Virus record (IMG/VR): IMGVR_UViG_3300043099_000912 | Span: 1-20,291 of that record | Reading direction: 5' to 3' (one strand) | Origin: a virus | DNA length: 20,291 nucleotides | The notes under the pieces: generated by a model | Told to the model about the DNA's origin: nothing | The model's input: the letters and a program-made list of their open reading frames with translations, nothing else | Databases searched by the model: none | Translations under genes and position numbers: made by a program | In this document: positions 1,974 to 20,111 of the stretch, piece after piece | Layout of the letters: each line of letters begins with the position of its first letter | Numbering within the stretch: position 1 is the stretch's first letter

Positions 1974-2846
1974 TTAACAGTTTGAACACATTGAACCAAT
2001 TACGAATCCGTCTGTTCCTATTTGCCACATTTCACAACCTCCGATGTCATTCGTGTACCACAAATCATTACCGTTGAATGGAGTTGTCAGTGAATTATCA
2101 GTGTAAAAACTTACGGCTGTAGACCAATTAGGTGATGCGGAAAATAAAGTTTGCGTCAGAGAATAAGTTCCTGTTGCACATGAACTGTCACCCGATGAAA
2201 CCACGTAACTAGTATAATCCTGTTGAAGAATAAACTGAGTTCCATCTTGAGCAATTATTTCGTCTCCATCTTGAGTTATGATTGCAATTTCAAAAACTGA
2301 TATTGTTGGAGTTGGAGTTGGTGTTGTGGTTGGAGTAGCTGTTTGTGTAGGAGTTTCGGTTTGAGTCGGAGTTTGCGTCGTTGTTGAAGTTGGAGTTTCG
2401 GTCGGAGTTTCGGTCGGAGTTTCAGATGGTGTATATGTTGGTGTATTTGTTGGTGTGCTTGTAAATGTTGGAGTAGGTGTTGGTGTTTCACAAGCCGTTG
2501 ATGTAATAGAAGGTGTAGGTGTGAATGTTGGTGTTTGGGATGGTGTAGAAGTTTGGGTTGGTGTTATTCCTGGGGTTGGAGTAATACTTGGTGTTGGAGT
2601 TGGAGTCGGTGTAATACAAGGACCCAATTGCACAACAACTCCGTTTATCATTTGAGTTTTTGTTTGTGCAGAATACACTGGTGTTGAACCTGTTGTATCT
2701 ACGTAAACATCGAATGGACCTAATGCATTTGTATTCGGAGTAATCCGTACAATATAGTTATTACAGGTATCCGCCGAGATTTGTTGTTCTATTAAATTAT
2801 CACAACCTGGCGCAGTATTGACGACTATGACGGACTGAAGCGGCAT
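1974..2846 (-). CDS. Tail-associated protein with a Pro/Thr-rich linker and Cys-containing end domains
   Basis: A 290-residue protein starting at ATG 2846. Residues 1-77 form an N-terminal domain with Cys15, Cys28 and Cys77. Residues 78-180 are an extended low-complexity linker of Pro-Thr with scattered Ser, Glu and Gln, interrupted by Cys119. Residues 185-210 hold a duplicated QDG motif ([13 protein letters not shown]). The C-terminal domain carries Cys223, Cys271, Cys287 and Cys290, plus aromatic residues in WYTND and MWQIG. No signal peptide is seen. The layout, with two small Cys-containing domains held apart by a stiff linker, suits an extracellular spacer or adhesin, and I infer a distal tail appendage from its place between the SprB-repeat gene and the collagen-like fibre. 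Pro/Thr-rich linkers of this kind recur in environmental phage proteins. I recognise no specific family for the end domains. Confidence 0.8.
2307..2615 (-). repeat. Pro/Thr-coding low-complexity tract
   Basis: The plus strand here is a degenerate series of gttgg/ggagt steps. The coding strand reads it as Pro-Thr repeats, residues 78-180 of the 290-residue protein. Units vary in length and codon choice. It explains the short Val/Gly-rich and His/Gln-rich open frames in the other frames. Confidence 0.8.
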
Positions 2847-2930: not shown

Positions 2931-3269
2931 TTAATCGGATTCCGTTGAGTAAATGTCAAATACACACGAAGTCTCTTGGAGAGAAATATTCAAAATACAA
3001 TCAACTAAATCTACTGTAATATTGAATGCGCAACCAAAAACACAATCCAATATTTTGAAAATTGAACAACCTGTAGCATCTACCAAAGTTAGCATGATTT
3101 GTGGGGCGGTTTGAAAAATTGCAGGTATTGTGGAGTTATAATTCACAGTTGGTGGAACGGTTGAATTGATTGTACCAAGCAATGTTTGATAATTACCATA
3201 AACATCGGAAATAAAAACACTAACGGGAGTTGTTGCGTTAGTAATTGAATCAATTCTTACCTGTACCAT
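2931..3269 (-). CDS. Small Cys-rich tail-region protein, function unknown
   Basis: A 112-residue protein starting at ATG 3269, one base after the TAA of the SprB-repeat gene, so probably co-translated with it. Residues 1-65 look like a beta-rich fold opening MVQVRIDSITN. The C-terminal 45 residues hold five cysteines (68, 76, 80, 91, 102) in hydrophobic strands such as CVFGCAFNITVDLVDC. There is no clear membrane helix or signal peptide. The pattern suggests a small beta-sandwich, perhaps stabilised by disulfides or a metal. I infer a minor tail component or a cap or partner of the adjacent adhesin, purely from position. No family is recognised. Confidence 0.7.
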   Translation of the reverse strand: MVQVRIDSITNATTPVSVFISDVYGNYQTLLGTINSTVPPTVNYNSTIPAIFQTAPQIMLTLVDATGCSIFKILDCVFGCAFNITVDLVDCILNISLQETSCVFDIYSTESD

Positions 3270-3270
3270 A

Positions 3271-5409
3271 TTAACAACTTATATCGTATTCGATAGCAAT
3301 ATCGAAGTTTATGATTTGATTATCCAAAAATGTGTTTCCCGCATTTTTTTGTATAGTTATCTGATTATTTATTGTATCTACTATAACATTCGATACACCA
3401 GGTACTGATTGTAATAAAGAAGTTATTGAATCTATCCAAACATTGTCGGAGGGAACATCAACAAGAGTTTTCGAATTGTAAAAAGAGGTTGATGCACTAA
3501 GTCCCACAGGTTCCACGTTTACAATTGCAAAAAATTCAGCAGAATTTAACATACAATTTGGATTTCCATCTGTCAAATCGACAAAACCATCGTTTAACAT
3601 TTGAAGTAATCCTAAATTTACCTCAGTTGTGATTGTCAAATCTTGGTCGCCGACCAAAAATTCATAATAACCATTCTTTTGTCCTAAACAAGAAATTTCA
3701 GTGGATTGTGAATAATAACATCCCAAGGAATCAGTTATGGTTAAACTATATGTTCCTCCCGTCAATCCACTTACGGTTATAGATTGTGGATTTCCGAATA
3801 CATTATCCGACCAATTGAAAATGAATGGAGGTGAGCCCGAAGATATAAATGCGGTAATTAAACCATCAGAACCATTTCCACAACTTTCATTATAAAGATT
3901 AAATTGAAGGGGACTTGATTGTGAAATAAAGACTGTGGCTCCTTTTGTACAACCACTTGAATCAACCACCGAAACAAAATGATTTCCTGAAGAAAGATTT
4001 GTAACTGTTACCGCGGACTGTGAAGTTTCCAAATCAACAGCAACCCCATCAACAAAGTAATTGAAAGGTTCCGTTCCACCCGTAGTTTTGAATATTTCAA
4101 TCGCACCATTATTTTCGCCACAGGTGGTTCCCGTAGAGGATATATACACATCAAAAAGGTCATTTGCAATTATATATACATCTTGTGAATATACACAAGA
4201 ACTATCATCAGTTACCACTACTGTATAATCACCAGTCACTAGACCATAAAATGTATAAATTGGAGAATTTTGAGTTATAGTTTCCGAACTACTATCAGGT
4301 TTTATAAGTGTATAGGTGAAAGGAGGAAGTCCTTGGAACAATGAAATTTGTATACTTCCATCCGAACTCGAGCAATTTGAATTTGTTGTTGTTATTGTGA
4401 CAGAACCTATAGATTGTGGAGAACTTATAGAAGTTCCCTCAGCTATTGTACACAAACCCGCATCAGTGACTTGAAATTGATATGAACCAGATGGAATATT
4501 ATATATAGTATAATCCTGTTGATAAGAAATTGCAACATCTCCTGTGGAAGCGGAATAATAATACGGTGCGGTCCCTCCTGTTATATAAATTGTCAATGAA
4601 CCATCTGAACTAAAACACGTTGGGGTTACTGCACTGAAATATCCAAAACCTAATGGGTCTACCTCACCAACATAAACACTTTCAGATTTTTTACAATTGT
4701 TGGCATCAGTTACTTCTAACGAATATACTCCTGAAGTCAATCCTGTAATTGTTGTACCTGTACCACCATTACTCCAAACATATTGGAAAGGAGCTGTCCC
4801 TGTAACCCCTGTAACATACAACTTACCGATAGGATTTGATGTGCTAGAACAATATGAGTTAGGAACAACATAAAAACCAAAATCAACAGGGTTGGAACTC
4901 TCAATTATAAAATCAGAAGTCCTTCCCGAACAACCCCCAAAATCTAAAACCTCAATACTATATGTTGAAGCTGATAACCCCTCAAACACTGCGAGGTCTC
5001 CATCAGTTGTAACTGTTTGTAGGACACTGTAAGATTCATCAAGTAAATAATAAATTGTAGATGAATAATCCGAGGTAGAAGTTGCTGAAACCGAGCCATT
5101 ATTATTGTTACAAGTTGTTGGAAAAATAGAAACTATTGAAGCTGTCACACCACTCGATACAGGTATATTTACCGTGAATGAATCGTTTACTGGTAAAGTG
5201 CTGTCATTCATTCTTACCGCATAATTTCCATAACCCAAATTTGTCCTTATCGAGGGACCAAGTGTTAGATATTCAATTGGTGGTAAAACGGGGTCAATCC
5301 ATTCTATTGTATATGGAGGAGTACCTCCGAAAGGGGTGATACTTATAGCACCTGACGAAGTGTGAGAACAATCTCCGGTTACTGCTATTGTATAATTGAA
5401 TGTTGCCAC
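3271..5409 (-). CDS. SprB-repeat adhesin-like tail protein
   Basis: A 712-residue protein starting at a GTG (5409-5407) that overlaps the TAG stop of the upstream gene as TAGTG. The next Met is residue 67, so GTG is the best start. Residues 14-564 comprise seven tandem repeats of about 80 residues. Each has a Cys near its start followed by [DN]G[SA]; then GG/GT-PP/AP-[FY]; then L-x-[SG]-G-x-Y-x-[VL]; and it ends D-x-x-G/S-C. Cys pairs in the last six repeats are 100/160, 187/239, 265/320, 346/405, 430/487 and 510/564; the first repeat keeps only Cys14. This matches the SprB repeat family found in Bacteroidota surface and gliding adhesins. Residues ~595-712 are a different module shared with the upstream 989-residue protein. 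I infer an array of beta domains carried by the tail for surface binding. Confidence 0.85.
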   Translation of the reverse strand: MATFNYTIAVTGDCSHTSSGAISITPFGGTPPYTIEWIDPVLPPIEYLTLGPSIRTNLGYGNYAVRMNDSTLPVNDSFTVNIPVSSGVTASIVSIFPTTCNNNNGSVSATSTSDYSSTIYYLLDESYSVLQTVTTDGDLAVFEGLSASTYSIEVLDFGGCSGRTSDFIIESSNPVDFGFYVVPNSYCSSTSNPIGKLYVTGVTGTAPFQYVWSNGGTGTTITGLTSGVYSLEVTDANNCKKSESVYVGEVDPLGFGYFSAVTPTCFSSDGSLTIYITGGTAPYYYSASTGDVAISYQQDYTIYNIPSGSYQFQVTDAGLCTIAEGTSISSPQSIGSVTITTTNSNCSSSDGSIQISLFQGLPPFTYTLIKPDSSSETITQNSPIYTFYGLVTGDYTVVVTDDSSCVYSQDVYIIANDLFDVYISSTGTTCGENNGAIEIFKTTGGTEPFNYFVDGVAVDLETSQSAVTVTNLSSGNHFVSVVDSSGCTKGATVFISQSSPLQFNLYNESCGNGSDGLITAFISSGSPPFIFNWSDNVFGNPQSITVSGLTGGTYSLTITDSLGCYYSQSTEISCLGQKNGYYEFLVGDQDLTITTEVNLGLLQMLNDGFVDLTDGNPNCMLNSAEFFAIVNVEPVGLSASTSFYNSKTLVDVPSDNVWIDSITSLLQSVPGVSNVIVDTINNQITIQKNAGNTFLDNQIINFDIAIEYDISC
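3718..5370 (-). repeat. Seven tandem SprB-type protein repeats
   Basis: Codons for residues 14-564 of the 712-residue protein. Repeats are 75-90 residues long and clearly diverged, so the repetition is visible in protein but not as near-identical DNA. This contrasts with the collagen-like gene. The third (residues ~187-248), fifth and seventh repeats are closest to the textbook SprB pattern. The first lacks the closing Cys, and the second lacks the central GGTxPY. Confidence 0.8.
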
Positions 5410-8378
5410 TAACTACAATTTATTGTCAGGTTTATACCTACGTTCAAATAAAGCGTTTGATTTACAAACGCAGGTGTCGATGTTGTATTAAATACTGTTA
5501 GAGTATTACCATTTAAAGTAAAGTTATATCCGTAATTATTCATTTGAGGTAAATACAAAACGAGTGCTTGTCTCCATTCCAAATTTGATGGATAACCATT
5601 GGAACCGTACCCAGTATAGAACATTTCATTCACGATTGTTTGGTTCCCTATTTTCAAATCTACATACCATTCGGAAACTAAAGTGTCAAGAACACATTCG
5701 TTCAGGGAAATTTCTTGTTCAGCCAACACGGAATTTAATGATGATAACAATATACTACTGAAATTAGATACTGTTGGGTTTCCATTCAACCAAGGATAAA
5801 TAAAAATACTTACATATTGTTGTGATACAGTCCCATTGAAAATACCAGAGGTAATCCTACAAGGGTCTTTAACTTTCGGAAGAATTAAACAACCTCTTTG
5901 TCTCCTATAAACTAATTTTTGTCTATGGAGAATTGAGTTTTCTAATTTAATCCCTCCGTTCCATATTGTAGTGGCTGGAACCATCTGTTCTACTAACTTC
6001 ATCCAAAATGGACCCAAACCATCCACATAATCAATCAATTTTTGATATGTGTAATCGTAATTCGGAAAACCAGTCTGTTGTTCCGAAAGAATATATTTCC
6101 ACCACAAAGATTGTAAATTAGGATATCCACCCGTTTTACCGTCCGTTATAAATTGTCTGTTCCTTGTGTTTATCATATTTTGCCAAAAAGTCTGAGCAAA
6201 CTCAAAGAAGGTTTTTTTCTTAGGTTCTGGATTTACAAAAGTCCAATCTAATCCACCAGGACTTGGATATCCTACAGTCAAACCTGATTCGGGTATTGGA
6301 TAATCATATTGTACTGATTCTCTCCAAACATCGAAAAGTAACCCTTGTGCAGGATTCAAAAATATATCTACATTTTTAACATTTAGTACCAATTTTTCAT
6401 TACCAACAAAATAGTATGAGTTAAAATTAGCATCCCTTGAAATTCTAAATAAATCGTCATCAGCTAACCATGATTTTTTATTGTCAACGACTCTTTCCAA
6501 AGAATATCCCAAAGTCATATATGGGAAATTTCTAAATCTATCTAAATATTGTTGACCGTATGTAAAAGGAGCAAGCTGCGTTTGTATATCAAAGTTTTGT
6601 CCTGTGAAAATTTGACCTGTATTTACTACTTCATCTGGACTTCTGTGGTCTGGTGTTGTCTCATACCATCCTGCACCCAATTGGAAGAAGTATGTCTCGG
6701 TGTTGACGGGAGCCTTTGGATAACCCTCATCATCAACGGGGTATTCTCCCCTGAAAACATTTACACTTTCAAAAGTTGATGTTGCGGTGAACGCACTGAA
6801 AACTTGTCCTTGAAATCTATAGGTAACATTTGATAGTGTAGGTAATTGGTTTGTGTAAGTTCCTCCCGATATAGACGCAAATTGAGACTCGAAATTCTCC
6901 ATATTGATTCTTTGGTCCGCCAAATAAATGTGTTCATTGTATTCTATAAGTGAATCAGGTGCACCAATAAGTCTCAGTAAAAATTCAATTGATTTCCTTG
7001 TACCTTTTGATTTGAAAAGATAGGAGGCATTCAAAATTAAATTTCTATAAAAAGCGTAGTTTAATTCGGTTGGGGTAAGTGCTTTGGCATATCCAGGATA
7101 GTTAGGTTCGTTAGTATTTCCAAAAATAGATTGTAAAAAATCCTCATCAGTTATAGGTGAAAAGTTGGACGACCATCCTAAAGTTTGCGCTAGGTTTACC
7201 AAAAGTTGGGAAGGTATGTCATTACCTGGATTGTAGTTCACAGAATTCATGAACGCTAACGCATCAATAAATTGTTTAATTTGGTCAAAGCTTCTACCGT
7301 AGATTTGTAATATTTTTTCTACTTTTTGGCCAAGGGTATCAAATTCTTTGAATGCATCGGTCACTAAAAATCTTGAAATCAAATTAGTTTTATAAGAATC
7401 CAATTCTACTGCAATATCTTGTAATTGGGTTAGATAGTTGTCAAAATTTATACTTGCAATGTCCAAATTCCAACTTCCATTCTTTGGGAAGGTAACTTGA
7501 GTGTATTGTGTAAAAAATTGACCTGTGTTGTTTTGTTGTGGTAATTGAAAAAATGCGGTATATTCGGGTCTAGTAAAACGATTCATCAAGAATTGTTCTA
7601 CCGTATCTAAACTTTCAGCAAAAACTTTGTCTACTATAAAATCATTTGGTCTTATCAAAAAATTATCATAAATTGTCGTTGCTGTAGTTCCAAAAGGGGC
7701 ACCAGAAACGTAAAAAGATAAAGTTCCTGTTGTCAGTGAGGTTGAGGGTGTAAATGATACAACTTTGAAAATATCATCGTTTATATTCACACAATAATCT
7801 AAATAAGTTCTTGTTAGATTTCTAAGATATGATGTTGTAATTTCTCTCGCCGCGATGTTTGTGTCCGCACTAAAACTATAATCAATATCGAACGGATTTA
7901 TAATTCTATCTAATGTCACATCAAAAGAAGTTTCATCTGCGATGGGGTCATAAACAATATTGATTGCAGTGGCTCCTGTGGTAAAATCCAAATTAGTGAA
8001 AACCACTTCTAAAGCAGCAGGAAAATAATTTATGATGTGAGTTACAGAAACTTCAAATCTCTTTGATAAAGACCCATATAAAGAAAAGTTCAATACTTGA
8101 GATACATCATAATTTGGGTAAACTCTAAATTGTGAGGCTTGTATTCTTCTTGACTCAAAAACATCCTCGATGTTCATGCTTTCAAGAGTCATTGGTTCAG
8201 AAAAAGCTCCTACATTAAACTTTCTATTTACTTTTTCTGTTACTCCCGCAGTAAAGTCAAAATTACCCAAAGTCAAACCACCTCCGTTGACAGTTTGTAA
8301 ACCAACTATATTGTCAGAGAAGGTTCCTGAACCACTACCAGGAACAGGAGGATAAAAATATTTTTTTTCTTGTGCCAT
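5409..8378 (-). CDS. Large baseplate/tail protein with P2 gpI-like segment
   Basis: A 989-residue protein whose ATG (8378) overlaps the preceding stop as TAATG. Residues 1-60 are Gly/Ser-rich. Residues 70-76 carry EDVFESR within IEDVFESRR, followed by QAS and an aromatic/Arg step, a motif shared with the 556-residue protein upstream. Residues ~340-480 are helical and contain KSKGTRKSIEFLLRLIG (456-472), the hallmark of P2 gpI-like baseplate proteins (TIGR02242-like), with a long amphipathic stretch before it. Around residues 815-860, VPATTIWNGG and a basic RQKLVYRRQRGC segment close that part. The last ~120 residues match the C-terminus of the adjacent 712-residue protein. In gpI-type systems this protein links baseplate to fibres, which fits its place directly before the adhesins. 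It is far longer than P2 gpI, so only the middle segment is claimed. Confidence 0.75.
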   Translation of the reverse strand: MAQEKKYFYPPVPGSGSGTFSDNIVGLQTVNGGGLTLGNFDFTAGVTEKVNRKFNVGAFSEPMTLESMNIEDVFESRRIQASQFRVYPNYDVSQVLNFSLYGSLSKRFEVSVTHIINYFPAALEVVFTNLDFTTGATAINIVYDPIADETSFDVTLDRIINPFDIDYSFSADTNIAAREITTSYLRNLTRTYLDYCVNINDDIFKVVSFTPSTSLTTGTLSFYVSGAPFGTTATTIYDNFLIRPNDFIVDKVFAESLDTVEQFLMNRFTRPEYTAFFQLPQQNNTGQFFTQYTQVTFPKNGSWNLDIASINFDNYLTQLQDIAVELDSYKTNLISRFLVTDAFKEFDTLGQKVEKILQIYGRSFDQIKQFIDALAFMNSVNYNPGNDIPSQLLVNLAQTLGWSSNFSPITDEDFLQSIFGNTNEPNYPGYAKALTPTELNYAFYRNLILNASYLFKSKGTRKSIEFLLRLIGAPDSLIEYNEHIYLADQRINMENFESQFASISGGTYTNQLPTLSNVTYRFQGQVFSAFTATSTFESVNVFRGEYPVDDEGYPKAPVNTETYFFQLGAGWYETTPDHRSPDEVVNTGQIFTGQNFDIQTQLAPFTYGQQYLDRFRNFPYMTLGYSLERVVDNKKSWLADDDLFRISRDANFNSYYFVGNEKLVLNVKNVDIFLNPAQGLLFDVWRESVQYDYPIPESGLTVGYPSPGGLDWTFVNPEPKKKTFFEFAQTFWQNMINTRNRQFITDGKTGGYPNLQSLWWKYILSEQQTGFPNYDYTYQKLIDYVDGLGPFWMKLVEQMVPATTIWNGGIKLENSILHRQKLVYRRQRGCLILPKVKDPCRITSGIFNGTVSQQYVSIFIYPWLNGNPTVSNFSSILLSSLNSVLAEQEISLNECVLDTLVSEWYVDLKIGNQTIVNEMFYTGYGSNGYPSNLEWRQALVLYLPQMNNYGYNFTLNGNTLTVFNTTSTPAFVNQTLYLNVGINLTINCS

Positions 8379-9286
8379 TATGTTGTTATCGTCGTGAAGT
8401 TTTTACTAAAATCAATGTTAGTACCTCTACTCTGTTTAACCTCATACAGTAAAGCATTAAATTCATTTCTAATCTCATACAGATTGTATTGTCTGTAGAT
8501 ATTATTTTCTGAATCATAGATAGTGTAGATACCATCGTCGATTGATTTAGTTTGGTTACCGTAAAGGGCAATTCCAAGACTTGAAATATCATACTCAACC
8601 ATTTCGATTTCTATTGTAACCGGATTGAAATATGTATTTGAAATAATAATTCCTTGTGTCGGTTGGCCTATAAAAGGAGTCGCGTTGGGGTTATTTGTTG
8701 GTGATGATGAGGGTGATAATGTCAAAAACAATAGATTTGATGTTCCATCTACATATCTATATCTAATTGCTTTTTGATTGGAGTTTGTTTCATTAGTGAC
8801 AACAGGTTCGCAGAAAAAACAAGATGTAACTACTCTAAAAAAATTAGGTATTTTAGAACCATCAGGATTTAGATATTCAATTCTAAATCCAACCAATCCC
8901 TGTGGGACAAATTTATTTTGATATTCTGCCGGCACATTCCCCAAATCCACTACTATTCCTTTAACGGTAGGTAAAGCACTCAAAACACCACAATCTGTTA
9001 TAATGGTTCTAATTTGTGCAGGTCTGAGGTAAAGAGTATAAATCCCCAAAGCATTAAATTGTTGGGCGGGTAAACTCAAATTATATAAACCACCAAGCAC
9101 TTCTACCCCAGCGTTACCACCTGTTTGAGTGTTATTAAAATAAGGTCTTAATATTGTTGGAGCATTTAGTTTTGTAAGTGTGAAATCATCTGTAACATCT
9201 CTTGATGGCGTGTAGACCATCAATATTTCTACGTCTTCAGGTGAAACATCACTAGGCCTTATTGTACCATATGAACCGATTGCCAT
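8378..9286 (-). CDS. Tail/baseplate-region protein, function unknown
   Basis: A 302-residue protein with start ATG 9286 and a stop overlapping the next start by one base (TAATG). It is soluble and predicted mixed or beta-rich, with no repeats or membrane segments. Cysteines are few: Cys99 and the pair Cys156/Cys159 in TSCFFCEP, which could bind a metal or form a disulfide. The C-terminal part (residues ~245-290) contains regularly spaced Tyr and Glu (IYRQYNLYEIRNEFNALLYE), suggesting a helical end. Neighbours on both sides are tail proteins, so it is probably a peripheral baseplate or connector subunit. Its length is near those of T4 gp8 and gp9, but I see no sequence basis for either assignment. 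A TATTTAT motif precedes its start in a 36-base gap. Confidence 0.75.
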   Translation of the reverse strand: MAIGSYGTIRPSDVSPEDVEILMVYTPSRDVTDDFTLTKLNAPTILRPYFNNTQTGGNAGVEVLGGLYNLSLPAQQFNALGIYTLYLRPAQIRTIITDCGVLSALPTVKGIVVDLGNVPAEYQNKFVPQGLVGFRIEYLNPDGSKIPNFFRVVTSCFFCEPVVTNETNSNQKAIRYRYVDGTSNLLFLTLSPSSSPTNNPNATPFIGQPTQGIIISNTYFNPVTIEIEMVEYDISSLGIALYGNQTKSIDDGIYTIYDSENNIYRQYNLYEIRNEFNALLYEVKQSRGTNIDFSKNFTTITT

Positions 9287-10416: not shown

Positions 10417-11217
10417 TTATGGGTTTATAAATTCATACCAAACAATCGGATTGTTAGGTTGACCAAATCTTACATTGTTTGAATCAAAGATTCTATAAGT
10501 TTGGGTTGGATAATCAATTTTCATTATATAATAAAAATATCTTGTCGTATCGAAGGTGAATTGTGAATTCGGAAAAAAACTTTGTGGTTTATTCATCATT
10601 CTCAAGAAAAATCCTGTTCTAGCATCATAAAATTTGGCTGACATGTAAAAGGTTGATATGTCTAAGAAATTTCTTTTCTTCAACCAATAAACAAAGAAAC
10701 CCTCTTTATCACCAACATAATCAAGCTTGAATTTTGGTTTTTTAATATCAACCGATGCTCTTGGTAATATTGCAGGTTGTTTTTCTCCTTGTTGTGTTGG
10801 GATTATCGCTGTGAGATAATTTATTTGTTTTTTCTCATCAGGAGTATCGTAGAAATCTAATTTGAAAAATGAGTTTGCGAATGCGTTTCTATAGTAATAA
10901 ACGTCGGGTACGGTGAATCCTGCCGCTAAATAAGTGTTCACCCAATTGGTCACGTTATTCAATGATGTACCTGAATGAAAATTGAATTCATAGTTTATTT
11001 CGGTCTTCTGATTATAAGGTTGTCCCGTAAATGGAGCGTGAGCGAATCTTGACAACTCAAAATCTCTACCAACACCAATAACCTCTGTAATTATTTCCTC
11101 TTCATATAAATCAATACTTTGGTCTATCCCCAAATAATCCCACGACATTTCAATTGGAATTGTAAGTGATTCACTTGTCAAAGATGTATTTGGGATTTTA
11201 TAATTAAGAACACTCAT
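10417..11217 (-). CDS. Tail/baseplate-region protein, function unknown
   Basis: A 266-residue protein. I choose ATG at 11217-11215 (MSVLNYKIPN) over the TTG one codon upstream. It overlaps the end of the upstream gene by 14 bases, suggesting coupled translation. It is rich in Phe and Tyr and strongly mixed in charge, with no membrane segment, cysteine cluster or repeat. Notable stretches are WDYLGIDQSIDLYEEEIITE (residues 26-45) and an aromatic C-terminus (RYFYYIMKIDYP). The size and position, two genes after the large wedge-like protein, would fit a small baseplate wedge subunit. I cannot match it to a named T4 protein from sequence alone. Confidence 0.75.
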   Translation of the reverse strand: MSVLNYKIPNTSLTSESLTIPIEMSWDYLGIDQSIDLYEEEIITEVIGVGRDFELSRFAHAPFTGQPYNQKTEINYEFNFHSGTSLNNVTNWVNTYLAAGFTVPDVYYYRNAFANSFFKLDFYDTPDEKKQINYLTAIIPTQQGEKQPAILPRASVDIKKPKFKLDYVGDKEGFFVYWLKKRNFLDISTFYMSAKFYDARTGFFLRMMNKPQSFFPNSQFTFDTTRYFYYIMKIDYPTQTYRIFDSNNVRFGQPNNPIVWYEFINP

Positions 11218-12874
11218 CAAATAATGGTTTAATCGGGAAGTTTATACCAAATAGATTATCATTGAAATTCACACCCTCAGGAATCAATCTGAAAACAATT
11301 GATGTAAAAGGATAGTGAGCACTGTTCAAAAAAGGATAGTCTACACCTCTACCTATGTTATCAAAAAAACCGTAATCATATATGTCTCTCCATCTAAATT
11401 GGCGGTCCGCACTTGAGTAATACGAATAACTTGGAACGTTATCAACAGAACCAATATTGGCAGTTTCTATGTAGTCAGAAAAAACTCTCAAACTCATTGA
11501 ATGATGTGGTTGGTAATAATACCCTTCTCTTGTTGGTAAATGTGTAAACACATTCGGATTGAAATTTATTTTATGGTAAAGTGGAGAAACAACTCTTTCA
11601 AGCTGTTCATAGTTATTCCACTCACAAAAATCTCCATCAACTATATCACCCTTATTCAAATCCTTTGTAAATGCAAAAGTGTAGTTCTGTTTTGTATACG
11701 TTGAAATTTGTAGATTCGAGTTAGAATTGAGGTTATTCCTGTCCCAATATGGATTTGTCGGTGAAGATAAATTGAACTTCCATCCACGTTTTATTCCGAT
11801 AGGGCTAGAGGGGTCATAAAAATATCCCGTATAACCCTTATGAACAATTGTAAGAAATAGTTCACTCAACGGTCTTTTTTGATTGTCTATTAAAGTTGTA
11901 ATATCTATATCGTAAGAAGAAGTAACATTATATGCGTTGCTACTTGTTTTTTGGGCAATTGTAGTTATTAGGTTAGGTGTTAGTGAACTAAGTTGTAGTT
12001 GTTTTTCTTCCAAGAAAACATTTTTTTCGAAACCCGATTTAGTCATGAGGACATCCTCAACAGATGTAAGTATTTTGTTTTGTCTAACATAATAATCTGA
12101 AGTTGTTTCCAAAAGATTATTTGGGTTTATTACTCTTTTGAAAGTACCGACTTTACCAGTATTGAATGTGTTTCCGGTATATCCATAATTGAATATATTA
12201 AAAATATATTCGTCTGAGTCAGTCTGACCGTTACCCAAAGAAAACACTTCAAACAAATCCACTCTTCCATACGCAAAGGACAATTTTACATATTCACCAA
12301 CGGATAATCCATGGGGTGAAATACATTGAAAAGCAATTACATTACTTCCGTTGAACGTTGTGTTTTGAATACTAAATGGAATTCCATCTTTAGCTATCCA
12401 ACTATTGATTGAAATCAGATTAGTATACAAAACCTGATTTGGATTGTTTTGAAACGCGTAAGAAAAATAATAAGTCCAATTATAGGTATAAGCACTTTTA
12501 GCATAAAAATCTAAATGTTGGTCTGTTATATCAGGTCGATAAAAATCAAATTCATAATACTGTGGGAACCCTTTCCATATATTAGTTTGAGTGGATTCGA
12601 TTGAATTTACGTAATATAAATTATTTTTAAAAGGTGTGTAATTAGTCGTTCCAGTCAGGGTATTTGCATAGAGATAATTTATTTTGAAGGTAGGTCGGTA
12701 TATTCTTGAGGCTTGTCTTTCAGATTCGAAAACATCTTCCAAAGATATTGTGGCATTCCTATCATATTCAACAATTTGTTGTTGCTTTTCTTCTAACGTA
12801 ACAGTAATCTTTTGGTCTACTTTAGGTGCAGATTGGTATGATAAGCTAGCCGGTATAATAGTGAATTTATTCAT
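11204..12874 (-). CDS. Baseplate-region protein with EDVFES motif
   Basis: A 556-residue protein. The frame is open further upstream to 12955, but that extension lies inside the 3' end of the preceding gene. ATG 12874 (MNKFTIIPAS) overlaps that gene by only eight bases and is the better start. Residues 25-50 are Glu/Gln-rich and lead into LEDVFESERQAS (45-56) followed by YRP. The same block, slightly altered, is near the N-terminus of the 989-residue protein. The rest is Tyr- and Asn-rich and probably beta-structured, with a conserved-looking segment near the end (RQFRWRDIYDYGFFDNIGRG). There is no signal or membrane segment. Shared motif and position suggest both proteins dock on the same baseplate partner. 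No named family is recognised. Confidence 0.75.
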   Translation of the reverse strand: MNKFTIIPASLSYQSAPKVDQKITVTLEEKQQQIVEYDRNATISLEDVFESERQASRIYRPTFKINYLYANTLTGTTNYTPFKNNLYYVNSIESTQTNIWKGFPQYYEFDFYRPDITDQHLDFYAKSAYTYNWTYYFSYAFQNNPNQVLYTNLISINSWIAKDGIPFSIQNTTFNGSNVIAFQCISPHGLSVGEYVKLSFAYGRVDLFEVFSLGNGQTDSDEYIFNIFNYGYTGNTFNTGKVGTFKRVINPNNLLETTSDYYVRQNKILTSVEDVLMTKSGFEKNVFLEEKQLQLSSLTPNLITTIAQKTSSNAYNVTSSYDIDITTLIDNQKRPLSELFLTIVHKGYTGYFYDPSSPIGIKRGWKFNLSSPTNPYWDRNNLNSNSNLQISTYTKQNYTFAFTKDLNKGDIVDGDFCEWNNYEQLERVVSPLYHKINFNPNVFTHLPTREGYYYQPHHSMSLRVFSDYIETANIGSVDNVPSYSYYSSADRQFRWRDIYDYGFFDNIGRGVDYPFLNSAHYPFTSIVFRLIPEGVNFNDNLFGINFPIKPLFDECS

Positions 12875-15800
12875 TCGGTAGATATTTTGTTTTAAACAAA
12901 TCCATAGCACTTTTTCCCTTGAATAATCCGAAATAAAAATGATTAGGTGCTCCAATCATAAATTTGCTTTTCATAGAATTCCAAACGTTCGGGTCATAAT
13001 TTCCAGATGAGTCCACATTGAAAATGTATCCCCTCTGATAGATATCTAATGATGTATTTGATGGTACAAAGTAATTAGGTGTCGTTAGATTTCTGCGGTT
13101 TAAATTTTGATAAGCGGAAGTGATAATGTCTAAACTATCAGTTGCCCAATTGTTTGTTTCACTTCCGAATATTGTGAATATATTTGAAGGTTGATTCAAT
13201 TGCCATTGGTAAAAAGGAACCTTTTGAGATTTTATACCGTATGGATATGTAATCGGAGGAACAAAAGGATTGGGTCTGAAATTTATGATTCCAGGGGATA
13301 CAAAATCTTTTGTTTGTAAATCAAACGTTGTAGATGAAAAAAATATTCCCATCAGTGCGTTATCTGCGGTTGTACCGTAAATAACAACGGGGTTTGTATT
13401 TACAGGACCAGTACTATCATAAAATTCAGGGGTAAATGGTACCACTCCAATTTCAGAATTTATTGACATCATTTGTGCCAAATCCGCATCAATTCTATTT
13501 TTTTGTGGAATTCCTTGGTTTCTACTGAATAAAACGTTTAGAGAATCATTGTTCGTTATCCTTGTCAAAAAAGTCGAATTGGCAATTCTAGAGATTACAA
13601 ATAAATTAACAATATTGGATGTATCTTGATAACTTGTAGGATTCAAGTTGTTCATCACATAAGCCGCTGTTGAGGGTGTAAACGTTATTTCATCATAAAA
13701 AGAATCTTTCATACCCAAATTTATAATCGTAGTAGGAAAAAGAAGATTTCTTTTGTTCATAGGGAATGCTTCCCCTAATGTGGACCTACCGATAAATGAA
13801 CCAGTAGTTGGTGAACCTAACCAAGGACTACTTCTATAATAAAAATTATTTGTAGAAGTATCGAAATATATCAATTTTCTTGGATATCGTAATTCTTTAA
13901 CTTTGTTGTCTCTTCCCCACCTTTTTGTTATTTGTATGGGGAATGTGAAAAGACTTCCATTCACCCAATTGTTTGTGAAAGATTGTGCTAAAACACCTCT
14001 ACACAATCCAAAGAAAAATCTATACCTATAACCCCATTCGTTGAAGTTTCTTATATCTTTACCTAAATCCTTCAGGGGTTTTCTCATGAAAACATAACAT
14101 CCATTTTCAACATCGTCTTTGGTTGCACAATTTCTGTTCACCCCAAAACTTGTATTATACTTTTCGTAACATCTGAGTGATACCGCGTTTTCACAGTTAA
14201 ATGAATCTAAAACATTAGTCCACGCTAATTGTCCTTCGATGTCAGGAGGCACAATATCCGCACCCGAGCTAAAACTTACTGTTGATATACCTTGGTCGGT
14301 AGTATTTATTATGTACGTACTAAAATTCAAGTTTTGTTGAAGTAGTGCCGGATTGTTGTTAAAACTTGAGCCGTCTAAACCATCTGAGGAGGGTAGTCTA
14401 TCAGTTCTCATCACGTTAATGTTACCGTTACTAATATTCAAAGGGTTTGTAATCAAACTTGGAAGTAATACCTTCGTGTAGTAAGAAGTAATAACCTCAC
14501 TAGGTTTATTACCACCCTGAAGATAATAATATGCCGCCCCTGATAAATCTTCATATTGTTCATATTTTTTTACTTTTACTCTTTCAGTGTTCGATGTTGT
14601 GAAAAAGTCATTGAACCAAGTAGAACAAATCCCTTGGTATTGTCCATTTATATTCTGAAGTAACATCCTCGGACCTGGGTTCTGAGCATCCAATTGTCCA
14701 TAATATCCTACCGTTGATGTAGTGAATGCTGAAAAATCGTTGCCAGGTTTGAAAAAGTGAGAGGAATAAAAAATATTATTCTGATTATTATGTTTTTGTA
14801 CAGAAGTCGTTGTATCCGTATTTTTTTGTATTGGAATATTCAATCTGGTTGATGCGGTTATAACAAAATCATTCTCATTGGGATATCCCAATAGTTTTCC
14901 TATACCGTATTTGTTTGTATAGTTTGGTGAATAGGGGTCAACCCCTCTTTGTAATATTAGAATAAATTGTTTATCAAAATCAACAAAAGTTGTAGATACT
15001 GGGTAGGTCGATACACTTGTAGAACCCCAACTTCCGCCAGTTCGTCTATTCCAAATGATGTCTGTATCAGAACTGAATATTGTTGGTAGAAGTCCGTTCG
15101 TTGTGTTCGGACCCCAAATTTGAACAGCATCACTCACTGTTATTGCAGTTATTACTTGGTAATATTCTAAGTCTGCAGGAAATTTATAATTTGTAATTGT
15201 TGAACCTGTGCTTAGTATATAATTTACAGGTGAAGAATTAGTGGTTTGTGAAATTGCATATTCTACAGGATATTGGGAAACTCCAGGATTTATGGAAGTT
15301 CCAGAAATTCCATTAGGAAAACCAAAGGCGACCGTAGACCCTGTAGTAGTGAAATTTACATCCTGAGTGAGCGCAATGTCAATGAACGTCAAAAGTGAAC
15401 CACTGTCAAAGGTTGTTTGACTTACAACCGTAATGGTGTTGTCAAAATGTTGTAGTGCTGAATTTGATGGAAAATCAAAACTTACACTTATCTTATTCAG
15501 ACCATCGAAGAATTTTTTTCGGGTATTAAAAACATTTATTCTCTCACCAAATGGTAGGTCAGGAGAATAGGAAAAGAATTTGTCATTACCATCAATCAAA
15601 GTTACTTCTTCGGGGAAAGTTGTTTTATACCTATCACTAGCCTCATCTCCACCTACCGTACCCATAGCTTGAGAGAAAGACTGCGCAACAATTTGTTGGT
15701 CCTCATTCGAATAAATCGACGCTAAGGACTGAAGTATTTTTTCATAATAATAATAACTTGCTGAGAATTGAGTTAAAAGCGAACTTTTATCTCCTCCAAT

Positions 15801-17702
15801 ATCAGAATCTGAAAAAGATTCTCCACAAGAACATGTTTGACAATCTGGATAGGTAAGTATTGGTAAGTAAAAACGATTGAAGCTTCTCCTCTTCAAGTTA
15901 TTCAGAAGTATGTTGAGAAGTATGGCCGAACCCAAAATTTTTCCTCCGAGTATAATAAATTTAGTAGCCTTTTGTATTACAATAAAAGAACCTCCCGTAA
16001 AAAACTGAGTTCCTGCAAATAGTAATTCTATGAGACCAATTGCAATCAGAGCGCCACCCAAAGTATAAAGGACAGTCAAAACAGTATTTTTAAAATCCAC
16101 CATGAAATTCCAAAGCGCTGCAATCAAATGATATGCAATCAAAAGAGGTATTGAAATTATTTGAAGAACTTGTAGTAGTATGCTATAAATAAAAAACAAA
16201 AAGTCGAAATTTCTAAATCCCTCATTTACTGGAAATTTATTCACAGTTTCTTCACACGAATTATTATCAATTTCCTTAACTCCTATAAATTTACCCCTAG
16301 CACCATCTTTATATTGGTCTATAAGTGCAGATACAGTATAAACTCGATTGTATTCAAATTCATAGAAAGTATCTTCACAATTTATTATTTGGTCCAATTT
16401 ATCCACCGCCTGTTGTCCTTGTAAACCGTTTGTATAACCACTCCAATCCAAACCAAAATAATATGAACTATTTAACTGCGGATTTGCAATTCCACTCAGA
16501 TTAGGGTCTTGTATATTATTTGGCCAACCGAACTCACGAACGTTTGGTATCAAATAATATGCTCTACGGTACTGTTCAGAAGCATTTGAAGATTGTTGCC
16601 ATTTAATTTTGAACCTATATTTCGATTTAGTTGGGATTCCAATAGTTGGGTCGTATGAAATTATTCTTTCTCCAAACTCATTTGTAACAAGGTACTCCAA
16701 ATTCATCGGGAGCTCGATGAGCCAAGCACCGTTATCATCAATCACATTACCATTCTTTTCGATATCGTATCTTTCTAAAAATGGATTTCCACTCAAATCA
16801 ACTTGGAGTGTTTGTCTTATTGCTATTATTTGTCCTGGTCCTGCTTCCAATTGACACAGGTTTCCAAAATCATCTTTCGGTCTTGAGTTTCTTTTTATTG
16901 CATATTGTTCAGAAGTAGAAAATATTGACCCCATGAAAACCGCGGTGGGTTGTATATCAACATTTGCTTCATTTCTTAAATCAAAATCAACTCTGTTTAT
17001 TGCGATTTGACAAACTGCGGGTTCACCCCATAATGGAGAGACTTCAACGACCTTAGTTAAATTTATTATTTGTGGTAATGAATTCAAATCAGCTGAGGTT
17101 CTAAATCTATTCCCCGCCACTTGAGCTTCTGTTGCCAAGCCCATTCTTATTAGGTCTTGTGGGGTAAGAGAAAATTCACCGATGTCTGATAAATCAACAT
17201 CCATTACTATTGTTTGCTCACCAAGAGGAACACCCATAATCATGTAGTCCCCGCTGTCATTTGTCTTGGCAGTGAGTTTGTAATATTTGTCAAAAATTTC
17301 GACTGCGGTCTGTCCCGTAAGCACATCCAATCTGGATGGTAAAGTACCTGTCGCGGCGTGTCCTGTGTATGACGGCTCATAGGGTAGAAGATTATATCTA
17401 TACCCATCTTCGTTCCTATCACTAGGTGAATTATAAGGGTATATTGAAGATATAATAGGATTAGATTGGTCAAACTGCTCTATGGGTATAAAAACCGCAA
17501 CCCTTGCATATGGAATACCTAATCCATTATTCGCGGTGACCCTACCGACTACAACACCATAGTCTGCACACAACCTCGAATAAACATCTTGTTGTTGGAG
17601 TTTGAGAGAAAGAATCTCTAAGAACTCAAACTCTTGTGTGAGTTCTACGTTTATTGTTTTAGTAATACCAAGTTCGGTCCTTATACGATAAGATTGACCC
17701 AT
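12867..17702 (-). CDS. Giant baseplate-region protein with carboxypeptidase-regulatory-like domain and hydrophobic block
   Basis: A 1611-residue protein. I use ATG 17702 (MGQSYRIRTE) rather than the TTG one codon earlier. Residues ~48-172 look like a carboxypeptidase-regulatory-like beta-sandwich: GRVTANNGLGIPYARVAVF, then after an insertion TNDSGDYMIMGVPLGEQTI. Residues ~498-602 are a nearly continuous hydrophobic stretch with several helix-length segments (FLFFIYSILLQVLQIISIPL; ALIAIGLIELLF; FIILGGKILGSAILLNILL) ending in basic LKRR. A Cys cluster, DCQTCSCG (Cys621, 624, 626), follows. The remaining ~1000 residues are soluble, Asn/Ser/Thr-rich and probably beta, ending with HFYFGLFKGKSAMDLF. 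Position after gp25 and gp6 is where T4 has gene 7 (about 1030 aa), so a gp7-like wedge role is possible. I see no direct motif match, and the hydrophobic block is unexpected there. Confidence 0.75.
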   Translation of the reverse strand: MGQSYRIRTELGITKTINVELTQEFEFLEILSLKLQQQDVYSRLCADYGVVVGRVTANNGLGIPYARVAVFIPIEQFDQSNPIISSIYPYNSPSDRNEDGYRYNLLPYEPSYTGHAATGTLPSRLDVLTGQTAVEIFDKYYKLTAKTNDSGDYMIMGVPLGEQTIVMDVDLSDIGEFSLTPQDLIRMGLATEAQVAGNRFRTSADLNSLPQIINLTKVVEVSPLWGEPAVCQIAINRVDFDLRNEANVDIQPTAVFMGSIFSTSEQYAIKRNSRPKDDFGNLCQLEAGPGQIIAIRQTLQVDLSGNPFLERYDIEKNGNVIDDNGAWLIELPMNLEYLVTNEFGERIISYDPTIGIPTKSKYRFKIKWQQSSNASEQYRRAYYLIPNVREFGWPNNIQDPNLSGIANPQLNSSYYFGLDWSGYTNGLQGQQAVDKLDQIINCEDTFYEFEYNRVYTVSALIDQYKDGARGKFIGVKEIDNNSCEETVNKFPVNEGFRNFDFLFFIYSILLQVLQIISIPLLIAYHLIAALWNFMVDFKNTVLTVLYTLGGALIAIGLIELLFAGTQFFTGGSFIVIQKATKFIILGGKILGSAILLNILLNNLKRRSFNRFYLPILTYPDCQTCSCGESFSDSDIGGDKSSLLTQFSASYYYYEKILQSLASIYSNEDQQIVAQSFSQAMGTVGGDEASDRYKTTFPEEVTLIDGNDKFFSYSPDLPFGERINVFNTRKKFFDGLNKISVSFDFPSNSALQHFDNTITVVSQTTFDSGSLLTFIDIALTQDVNFTTTGSTVAFGFPNGISGTSINPGVSQYPVEYAISQTTNSSPVNYILSTGSTITNYKFPADLEYYQVITAITVSDAVQIWGPNTTNGLLPTIFSSDTDIIWNRRTGGSWGSTSVSTYPVSTTFVDFDKQFILILQRGVDPYSPNYTNKYGIGKLLGYPNENDFVITASTRLNIPIQKNTDTTTSVQKHNNQNNIFYSSHFFKPGNDFSAFTTSTVGYYGQLDAQNPGPRMLLQNINGQYQGICSTWFNDFFTTSNTERVKVKKYEQYEDLSGAAYYYLQGGNKPSEVITSYYTKVLLPSLITNPLNISNGNINVMRTDRLPSSDGLDGSSFNNNPALLQQNLNFSTYIINTTDQGISTVSFSSGADIVPPDIEGQLAWTNVLDSFNCENAVSLRCYEKYNTSFGVNRNCATKDDVENGCYVFMRKPLKDLGKDIRNFNEWGYRYRFFFGLCRGVLAQSFTNNWVNGSLFTFPIQITKRWGRDNKVKELRYPRKLIYFDTSTNNFYYRSSPWLGSPTTGSFIGRSTLGEAFPMNKRNLLFPTTIINLGMKDSFYDEITFTPSTAAYVMNNLNPTSYQDTSNIVNLFVISRIANSTFLTRITNNDSLNVLFSRNQGIPQKNRIDADLAQMMSINSEIGVVPFTPEFYDSTGPVNTNPVVIYGTTADNALMGIFFSSTTFDLQTKDFVSPGIINFRPNPFVPPITYPYGIKSQKVPFYQWQLNQPSNIFTIFGSETNNWATDSLDIITSAYQNLNRRNLTTPNYFVPSNTSLDIYQRGYIFNVDSSGNYDPNVWNSMKSKFMIGAPNHFYFGLFKGKSAMDLFKTKYLPNE
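15897..16208 (-). other. Membrane-like hydrophobic block inside the 1611-residue protein
   Basis: Codons for residues ~498-602 encode roughly four helix-length hydrophobic segments with few charges. They are flanked by FRNFDF before and NNLKRRSFN after. The rest of the protein is soluble. It could be transmembrane or a membrane-inserting segment released on infection; a buried hydrophobic helix bundle is the other reading. Confidence 0.65.
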
Positions 17703-17716
17703 CAAATACTTTTATG

Positions 17717-17790: not shown

Positions 17791-19629
17791 TTAGGAGAAT
17801 GTAATTGTTTGGAAATTCTTTACTGATACCCTGATATCCTTGTTTGGGAATCTAATCTGATAAACTTGGTTGGGTTGTGCAAAAATAGTATCATCAACAG
17901 GTTCAATTTGTCTTGTCTCAGGGTCAGAATATCTCATAGACGTTTCTGCTGAGGAATATTGTCCCCCAACTTCGTTGAAAATATCTAATCCTGCAACAGT
18001 CAAAACACCATTAGTATTTTGTATTTGACTTCTCAATTCCGACAAATATACATTTTGACCGAGTTGTCTTATCTGAGGATTGAAGTATGTAGAAACTTTA
18101 TCAATAACCGAAGATATTACCTGTCCTGAATTCTGTGCTGAGTCTAAAACAATTGATATATCTACACTCAAATCAATTACCTCAGCACTGAAAATTGATA
18201 TGTAATCATTCATCATCCTATAGTTTGATAAATAATTTGCGATGTTTTGTTTCAGGGTGTTCGAAACTATGTTTGTTAGTTTTCCCTGAGTGTCATAAGA
18301 CAAAATTTGAATGAGTATTTTATTATCGTTTTCTGTAATTGAAACCTTTGCTGGTGCTCCGAATTGGGAAGGCATATTTCTGATTATCGATTCATAATCC
18401 TGAACGGTCACAGCTCTTTTCTGAGCTGAGAAATTGAATGACACATAATTACGGATTTCATCCACATTAGGCATGTTAGCTCCTCCAATAGCCGCTGTTA
18501 CGTTTGTACATCTCAGAGAGTTTACTACAGCAGTATTGATTGTTTCAGACGGACCGTTTACAAAAAATGAAACAGTGCCCACTTGGTTGATTACATTTGT
18601 ACCAAGATTGGTATTCAACCCACCGCCAACTCTGTATTGAATGAACAATGTTGAATTAGGCTTCAATGCGGCACCTAAGGATATATTGTTTGAATATTTT
18701 TGAATATTCAACGTGGTGCCTAATGTAGTAAATTGGTCCAGTGCATCTTGTGCCGTATTAGTACCACCACCAAATGTCAACTTCTTAAAACCTTCAGAAG
18801 TATACTCACTCATAAATCTATTTTGAGTTTGTATATATCTTCCAACTTTTATTCCTGGTTGGTCTGAGACTTTGGTTGGGTCCTCTACAAACACTCTATC
18901 TTCAGCAAGAGCATCAACCTCGTACCATCTATTAGCTGCGCCAAGAAATTCGGCTGTTGTTGGAATGTTAGTGTATTGTGTTCCATCTTTAAGAAGCACG
19001 CTTGTTATACCTAAAACATTTTTTTCAGGTAAAAACAATTCAAAGAATGGCTTAACATCACTTGGTGTAATTACCCTTTTGAATACTTTGGTAATACCGT
19101 TTACAACTATTTCTCTTTTAGTAATAGTATAGTTTATGAGAATTCCATTCGTATTGAAATTTGGTATTTTGACTCTATTAGGGAAACCTTGAGAATTATA
19201 AGGTGATGAAAAATCTATGTCCTCTACATTCTCAAAGACTAATCCCGAACCTATGATTTGTGACCCTCTTACCAATGTGCCTAAGTATCTTTCATCTTCT
19301 TTGTCTCCAAATGCTGGAACTGTTATCGAAAAATCAACCAATGAGACTGAAGGTCTCATACCTGGAATTTTCAAACCGTAGGTTCTAGCTATATTGTATA
19401 TTGAAGTTTTTTGTTGAGCATATTGTAAAACAGTCTCTTGAATACTCCTATCAATATGATAATGTAAGTTATCTGCTACCGCAGCATTCAAGTCCAAAAA
19501 AACAGAAAATACTGATGCGTCGTTGAAATCTTGAATCAGTTCAGGGTAATAAGTTCTTACATAGTTTTGGAGTTCAACCCTAATTGACGCAAAGTCCCTT
19601 GACGTATATGATATTTGACGGTTAGCCAT
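17791..19629 (-). CDS. Baseplate wedge protein, gp6 / baseplate J-like
   Basis: A 612-residue protein with start ATG 19629, five bases after the gp25-like stop. In T4, gp6 (660 aa) forms the ring that joins wedges around the baseplate and changes shape on contraction; P2 gpJ is the equivalent. Visible support: the N-terminus YTSRDFASIRVELQNYV with LDLNAAVADNLHYHIDRSI (about residues 47-64), typical of gp6-like N-termini; and residues ~375-450 with GGANMPNVDEIR, AQKRAVTVQDYESI and PSQFGAPAKV, the usual J-family order (GG..P..DEIR, QxRAVTxxDYE, FG..KV). Length is close to the T4 protein. Together with the adjacent gp25 homologue it defines the locus as a contractile-tail baseplate. Family assignment is firm; exact subunit equivalence is inferred. 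Confidence 0.92.
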   Translation of the reverse strand: MANRQISYTSRDFASIRVELQNYVRTYYPELIQDFNDASVFSVFLDLNAAVADNLHYHIDRSIQETVLQYAQQKTSIYNIARTYGLKIPGMRPSVSLVDFSITVPAFGDKEDERYLGTLVRGSQIIGSGLVFENVEDIDFSSPYNSQGFPNRVKIPNFNTNGILINYTITKREIVVNGITKVFKRVITPSDVKPFFELFLPEKNVLGITSVLLKDGTQYTNIPTTAEFLGAANRWYEVDALAEDRVFVEDPTKVSDQPGIKVGRYIQTQNRFMSEYTSEGFKKLTFGGGTNTAQDALDQFTTLGTTLNIQKYSNNISLGAALKPNSTLFIQYRVGGGLNTNLGTNVINQVGTVSFFVNGPSETINTAVVNSLRCTNVTAAIGGANMPNVDEIRNYVSFNFSAQKRAVTVQDYESIIRNMPSQFGAPAKVSITENDNKILIQILSYDTQGKLTNIVSNTLKQNIANYLSNYRMMNDYISIFSAEVIDLSVDISIVLDSAQNSGQVISSVIDKVSTYFNPQIRQLGQNVYLSELRSQIQNTNGVLTVAGLDIFNEVGGQYSSAETSMRYSDPETRQIEPVDDTIFAQPNQVYQIRFPNKDIRVSVKNFQTITFS

Positions 19630-19634
19630 TATTT

Positions 19635-20111
19635 TTAAATATTGATAATTATAAAATCACTTTCGGCAAATGTTTGAGCATTTGTCGAATAATCTATTTT
19701 TATTTTTGCAGTATATTCTGAAGTACCTTTTCCTGGTAATCTATAAACATCATAAAGTCTGGCAGTTTCATCTGCAGTAATTTGTCCCATTTCCCTATTT
19801 ACTTCCATAGATTCATCCGCTGGTTCAATCGTAATCTGATTTACCAATAAATTAGGCATAAATCTTTGTATTGCATCTCTAATATCTGACTCAATAGCTT
19901 GAAATGTCAAACCATCCAAAGGCTCAAAAACAAATTCATATATTCTTGTTCCAAATTCAGGTAAATAGTAACGCGACCCCTTCCTTGTCAAAATAAGATG
20001 AATTAAATCTGCCCTTATCTGTTGAGACGTATATTCAGTTAATTCAAGAAAGTCTCCTCTAAAAGAATCATTGAATGGGAATTTTATACCATAGGTTGTT
20101 CCGTCTGCCAT
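19635..20111 (-). CDS. Baseplate wedge protein, gp25 / gpW-like
   Basis: A 158-residue protein with start ATG 20111. In T4 (132 aa) gp25 bridges the wedge to the tube/sheath initiation point and has homologues in P2 (W), type VI secretion (TssE) and contractile injection systems. Residues 30-66 show the family signature: QQIRADLIHLILTRKGSRYYLPEFGTRIYEFVFEP, read as helix, LTRxG-R, PEFG, then FEP. The C-terminal extension (residues ~95-158) is longer than in T4. It is followed five bases later by the gp6-like gene, the usual 25-6 functional pairing. A TATTTAT motif lies five bases before the start. No Shine-Dalgarno sequence is visible. Confidence 0.95.
   Translation of the reverse strand: MADGTTYGIKFPFNDSFRGDFLELTEYTSQQIRADLIHLILTRKGSRYYLPEFGTRIYEFVFEPLDGLTFQAIESDIRDAIQRFMPNLLVNQITIEPADESMEVNREMGQITADETARLYDVYRLPGKGTSEYTAKIKIDYSTNAQTFAESDFIIINI

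Follow-up and report, generated by a model that had tools for sequence, protein, structure and literature searches.

A seven-repeat SprB-type protein as a candidate host-contact component in the tail operon of a jumbo-phage family

Why does a phage tail operon hold a gene built of repeats that are otherwise familiar from Bacteroidota adhesins? The question is raised by a 20-kb IMG/VR fragment (IMGVR_UViG_3300043099_000912, 20,291 nucleotides, analysed over its whole length and hereafter called the window), for which the original prediction, made from the letters alone, had proposed seven SprB-type adhesin repeats inside a contractile-tail operon and the capture of a host adhesin module. The reading that we favour, with a probability of roughly 60%, is that the encoded 712-aa protein is a core tail- or baseplate-associated rod for host-surface contact; its presence in the virion and its adhesive role are what we infer.

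Repeats, predicted fold and operon setting

The open reading frame at 3271-5409 was confirmed with its seven repeats: it lies on the minus strand, encodes 712 aa, begins with GTG and overlaps the stop of the gene upstream (Table 1). In Pfam-A the protein matches SprB (PF13573) over six stretches, with a whole-protein E of 1.4e-27 and a score of 95.5 bits (cut-off 28), and the family is likewise matched by 35 out of 35 aligned relatives, which bears out the proposed SprB-type assignment. A profile built from the repeats recovers all seven; because this profile was trained on the window's own repeats, independent evidence comes from Pfam and from the relatives. At the DNA level, a search of the window record gave four repeats at E<=1.1e-7, with three above the cut-off. 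The seven repeats are 19-38% identical to one another, and repeat 7 is the most conserved (mean pairwise identity 67%). Paired cysteines, predicted for the repeats in general, are found in repeats 2-7, whereas repeat 1 has the first cysteine only.

Table 1. Coordinates of the features of the window, listed in order along the minus strand
Feature	Position	Strand	Evidence
gp25-like baseplate wedge protein	19635..20111	-	PF04965, E=1.4e-12
gp6/Baseplate_J baseplate wedge protein	17791..19629	-	PF04865, E=7.7e-7; phrog_219, E=3.3e-24
Large 1612-aa protein after gp6	12867..17705	-	
302-aa conserved tail-operon protein; query for collecting syntenic loci	8378..9286	-	
989-aa tail-operon protein, adjoins SprB gene upstream	5409..8378	-	no family match
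SprB-repeat protein, 712 aa: seven Ig-like repeats and C-terminal alpha/beta domain	3271..5409	-	PF13573, AlphaFold2, Foldseek
Repeat 1, residues 7-93, one conserved Cys (C14)	5131..5391	-	
Repeat 2, residues 94-178, Cys 100/160	4876..5130	-	
Repeat 3, residues 179-258, Cys 187/239	4636..4875	-	
Repeat 4, residues 259-337, Cys 265/320	4399..4635	-	
Repeat 5, residues 338-421, Cys 346/405	4147..4398	-	
Repeat 6, residues 422-503, Cys 430/487	3901..4146	-	
Repeat 7, residues 504-573, Cys 510/564	3691..3900	-	
C-terminal alpha/beta domain, residues 574-712	3274..3690	-	AlphaFold2 of the domain alone, pLDDT 78.6
112-aa protein directly downstream of SprB gene, kept in synteny	2931..3269	-	
290-aa protein, TPT-rich linker between conserved ends, likely fibre-type, syntenic	1974..2846	-	

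An AlphaFold2 model of the whole protein, calculated from an alignment of 35 relatives (mean pLDDT 82.6), consists of seven all-beta domains followed by an alpha/beta domain at the C-terminus. Since the pTM is 0.36 and the domain-to-domain arrangement is poorly determined, the rod shape and its length are what we infer from this tandem architecture. A Foldseek search of the PDB with the model ranked pieces of the Aureispira grappling hook protein GhpA first (E=6.8e-19), with a long series of other Ig-domain proteins behind them; the predicted tandem beta sandwiches are therefore in agreement with the Ig-like fold that had been proposed. The original prediction had named two outcomes that would speak against it, the lack of a SprB match and a fold unlike Ig domains; Pfam gave the opposite of the first, and AlphaFold2 and Foldseek the opposite of the second.

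Could these be generic phage Ig-like domains that have come to look like SprB by convergence, with GGTxPY and paired cysteines but without any relationship to Bacteroidota adhesins? A phage decoration protein does contain a GGTxPYTYxW motif, a neck-whisker protein has something similar, and the stems of phage repeats 1 and 2 are long in a 126-domain tree, as convergence would lead one to expect. However, the window protein passes the curated PF13573 cut-off together with all 35 members, and in ten Bacteroidota genomes about five consecutive phage repeats align to single host proteins, with E down to 1.7e-39. The cysteine pair, too, recurs in 1836 of 1894 sampled host repeats (97%), a biased sample, its loci having been picked for their resemblance to a different SprB protein, and the top solved structures come from a bacterium, Aureispira. 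Convergence is, on this evidence, quite unlikely.

The proposed contractile-tail baseplate operon stood up to scrutiny, the SprB gene being syntenic with genes for gp25 (PF04965) and gp6 (PF04865 and PHROG). The 'gpI-like' label that had been given to the 989-aa neighbour did not: the protein has no match in Pfam or PHROG and no significant PDB sequence match. The assignment was also tried through homologues in a sister lineage (see below) and not confirmed, as these give only weak PHROGs of unknown function; with neither the protein nor these homologues matching a known family, the gpI name is unproven. Elsewhere in the window, a long collagen-like GSSGTSGSSGTD repeat protein at 2-1930 runs off the contig end, and the long open frames on the opposite strand of this stretch are apparent composition artefacts. 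Syntenic homologues of the 290-aa protein (1974-2846) vary strongly in length, from ~210 to 790 aa. As listed, the ORFs 11204-12955 and 12867-17705 overlap by 89 bases, and one of their two TTG starts is probably wrong.

Distribution, age and host of the phage family

The original prediction suggested looking for the same gene in other phages with gp25 and gp6, and there it was found. From the 341 relatives that a scan with the 302-aa neighbour yielded, we retained the best 80; scanning with the SprB family yielded at least 527. The SprB gene directly follows the 989-aa gene in 70/70 loci that reach far enough (a count that includes the window and several near-identical loci), and every complete copy in the syntenic loci has seven repeats; the loci without the gene end at or shortly past the 989-aa gene. 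With the 302-aa protein as query, we found no relatives of the phage in bacterial genome assemblies. Two long relatives measure 317 and 326 kb, and the family therefore belongs among the jumbo phages.

The array is old. All 16 cysteines are invariant in the 41 dereplicated members, the best match of each repeat in other members is the same-numbered repeat in 11480/11480 comparisons, and in the 126-domain tree each of the seven repeat positions forms one clade (SH-aLRT 90-99). Positional orthology and one clade per position together indicate that the seven-repeat array was complete before the family diversified. The tree has too few columns to resolve the place of the phage repeats among host repeats or the number and direction of transfers.

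These data bear directly on the 'captured host adhesin module', which cannot be upheld as it was worded. Within the family the gene for the array is ancestral and fixed; host SprB homologues, for which a search had been proposed, do exist in ten Bacteroidota genomes, but close repeats are not among them, the matches listed being only ~28-43% identical; the protein lacks a T9SS sorting domain; and its C-terminal domain is seen in phages only, within the data searched here. Recent capture from a host was accordingly considered and rejected, because of the perfect positional orthology and because the host genomes searched yielded only repeats of low identity. A remote origin of the phage array from Bacteroidota-type repeats is plausible.

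Might the protein nevertheless be a recently acquired adhesin, or one secreted to the surface of the infected cell and no part of the virion? Such a gene does exist in a different huge phage, the 642-kb LR756502.1, in which a 1675-aa protein (L014:12661-17685) has 14 SprB repeats, a PKD domain, a C-terminal CHU_C and an N-terminus resembling a signal peptide; to judge by its sequence, it looks like a host-type secreted adhesin borne by a phage, and 3/4 of its sampled repeats fall among host repeats in the tree. In the window protein Pfam finds no CHU_C, and the Por_Secre_tail matches in its relatives are below the cut-off and lie inside the repeats, away from the C-terminus. Its N-terminus opens straight into repeat 1 (MATFNYTIAVTGDC) with no hydrophobic leader, as judged by eye. 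We reject T9SS-secreted cargo because there is no sorting domain, and with an array older than the phage family and so distant from the host repeats listed, a recent or secreted adhesin is largely refuted and hardly credible here.

Which host the family infects can be approached from two sides. Five long relatives of the window lineage encode bS21, in a region that the window fragment ends short of; in one of them (L097) the gene is on the opposite strand and adjoins a Peptidase_S77 prohead protease, an arrangement also published for bS21 phages whose predicted hosts are freshwater Bacteroidetes (PMC9723584). Shine-Dalgarno-like motifs precede 7 of 688 starts (1%) compared with a 10% background, these starts coming from related phages and not being independent of one another, while for the control phage, Mel-JY01, the figure is 11 of 28 starts (39%, background 6%). 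Depletion of Shine-Dalgarno motifs is typical of Bacteroidota. Taken together, the bS21 arrangement and this depletion make a Bacteroidota host likely, so that the family, on indirect grounds, probably infects Bacteroidota. The Microcystis phage Mel-JY01 itself has gp6-type and tail-operon genes in common with the window's group and carries bS21; it uses Shine-Dalgarno motifs and is without the SprB repeat.

The C-terminal domain and a surface-contact role

The model of the C-terminal domain matched no PDB fold at E<=0.001. In a viral structure library its top match was A0A6J5LD72 (TM 0.81, E=1.2e-10) and its second a 985-aa phage protein (TM 0.51) that is about as long as the window's 989-aa neighbour; going by fold and length, these two are probably relatives of the window's two genes. 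A search of 198 Bacteroidota genomes, run without a positive control, gave no match to the domain. An hhalign comparison of the domain with the C-terminal 290 residues of the 989-aa protein gave P 66% and E=5.8e-5, in an alignment that reaches the extreme C-terminus of both, versus P<=1.4% in every control, for which we used one column reversal, eight column shuffles and six further proteins of the operon. This moderate resemblance suggests that the two C-termini share descent, and it is from such shared descent that our docking hypothesis springs: the alpha/beta domain would probably dock the rod to the 989-aa protein or co-assemble with it. Counting against docking are the C-terminal additions, which would need explaining if the C-terminus docks. 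Extra length of this kind is present in 5 of the 41 dereplicated members, either as TPT-rich linkers with variable domains or, in the SprB protein at L090:13881-17207, as a leucine-rich-repeat extension (LRR_8, E=1e-15). The 317-kb relative (L182, G009:292000-298500) encodes a second, fibre-like protein of 984 aa, in which TPT linkers are combined with two single SprB-type domains.

For the array itself, we propose a stalk encoded in the baseplate operon, in which the seven SprB-type Ig-like domains, with their cysteines, would be strung out lengthwise and to which some members add the C-terminal modules just described. The rod would most likely touch the host outer surface through weak multivalent contacts, be it at its glycans or at host adhesins, either ahead of irreversible binding or in the course of it.

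The main rival to such a surface-contact rod is a purely structural spacer, in which the seven domains would bind no ligand themselves and would serve only to fix length and stiffness or as baseplate decoration, leaving other fibre proteins to recognise the host. Here the rates of evolution are informative. In ten pairs the dN/dS of the SprB gene is 0.05-0.17, compared with 0.01-0.07 for the 989-aa gene and 0.005-0.05 for the 302-aa gene, and it is higher than both in 10/10 pairs and lower than that of the large protein in 6/10, ratios being rough where synonymous distances above ~1 are near saturation. Mean pairwise identities are 89% (302-aa), 76% (989-aa), 58% (SprB) and 58.5% (large protein). 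The SprB gene is under purifying selection, in a pattern that fits a partly exposed part. A spacer would be expected to show purifying selection throughout, as well as the constant number and order of repeats, but it fits less well with a gene whose evolution is faster than that of the core proteins of 989 and 302 aa, or with members that gain binding-type C-terminal modules such as leucine-rich repeats. Ig-like domains are, for their part, common in phage structural proteins (decoration and neck-whisker proteins appear among weak PDB sequence matches), and there are fibre-like genes downstream that could take over recognition. Because the large protein varies faster in 6/10 pairs, the main receptor-binding role may fall to another protein; this counts for the spacer and limits what we ascribe to the surface-contact rod.

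The sister lineage (at least 592 relatives of L012; copies examined, L183-L262 and L012) has a further bearing on this choice. In 49/49 of its copies, some of them partial, two to four SprB-type repeats occupy the C-terminal part of the large post-gp6 protein. The seven-repeat gene is absent from the stretches seen, and in the window lineage the same profile finds no SprB-type repeats in the large protein. Two lineages thus bear SprB-type repeats in the same operon but in different proteins, and this occurrence at another position is not what a spacer would predict; we regard the spacer as possible but doubtful. In L183, L209 and L229 the 989-aa protein corresponds to two consecutive genes, covering residues ~20-617 and ~612-839, through fusion or split. 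The sister gene after the first 'gpI' was tried as a paralogue in the SprB slot and discarded, its blast coordinates matching residues ~612-839 of the 989-aa protein.

Phage receptors in Flavobacterium have been proposed as part of the gliding machinery (PMC7345892). The rod might engage host SprB/T9SS adhesins by like-with-like Ig contacts, with the gliding machinery carrying or capturing the virion toward the injection site, which we consider very unlikely. Were it true, this phage group would have taken up SprB-type arrays repeatedly for that purpose, in the window lineage as a gene of its own and in the sister lineage as a fusion with the large protein. What the locus does provide is a candidate host-contact protein for a very large, uncultured jumbo-phage group, probably infecting Bacteroidota, and a concrete protein for expression and test. 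A Bacteroidota adhesin domain has become a permanent part of the tail operon in two related phage lineages, by way of two different genes.

Comparison with known systems

In the open-access literature, outside which most subscription journals lie, we found no paper on SprB repeats in phage tails, and PMC6802176 does not mention SprB. The probable relative A0A6J5LD72, of near-identical length (714 aa), is a UniProt entry named 'SprB repeat [uncultured Caudovirales phage]'; for it we found a database annotation only, the open-access literature that was searched yielding no description. The bS21 myophages of freshwater Bacteroidetes (PMC9723584) have genomes of up to 331 kb, and their bS21 gene lies close to that for the prohead protease and on the opposite strand; we liken them to the window family by this gene arrangement, and the text of that paper does not mention an adhesin. 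LR756502.1 also has phage-encoded SprB repeats, but its protein differs in its CHU_C, its 14 repeats and its secreted type.

With the PF13573 SprB proteins of Bacteroidota (Flavobacterium SprB and T9SS adhesins) the phage protein shares the repeat family, the cysteine pair and the tandem arrays. It differs from them in having no T9SS sorting domain, in its C-terminal domain, and in its array, which is fixed at seven repeats of 19-38% mutual identity and encoded in a baseplate operon. GhpA of Aureispira (PDB 9flp and others) has serial Ig-like domains like those of the phage model; however, it is a giant bacterial protein with ~16% identity and no phage setting.

A functional parallel comes from crAss-like phages, whose tail proteins contain tandem Ig-like BACON arrays with a proposed role in host binding (PMC6949934). 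These, too, belong to a Bacteroidota-associated Ig-like family, are tail-associated and form a stable array in one lineage, although they represent another domain family, occur in gut phages and have other neighbours and another C-terminal domain. By analogy with them, a surface-contact role is most likely for the seven-repeat protein, and the two cases together suggest that Bacteroidota phages have repeatedly put the Ig-like domains of their hosts' surface proteins to use.
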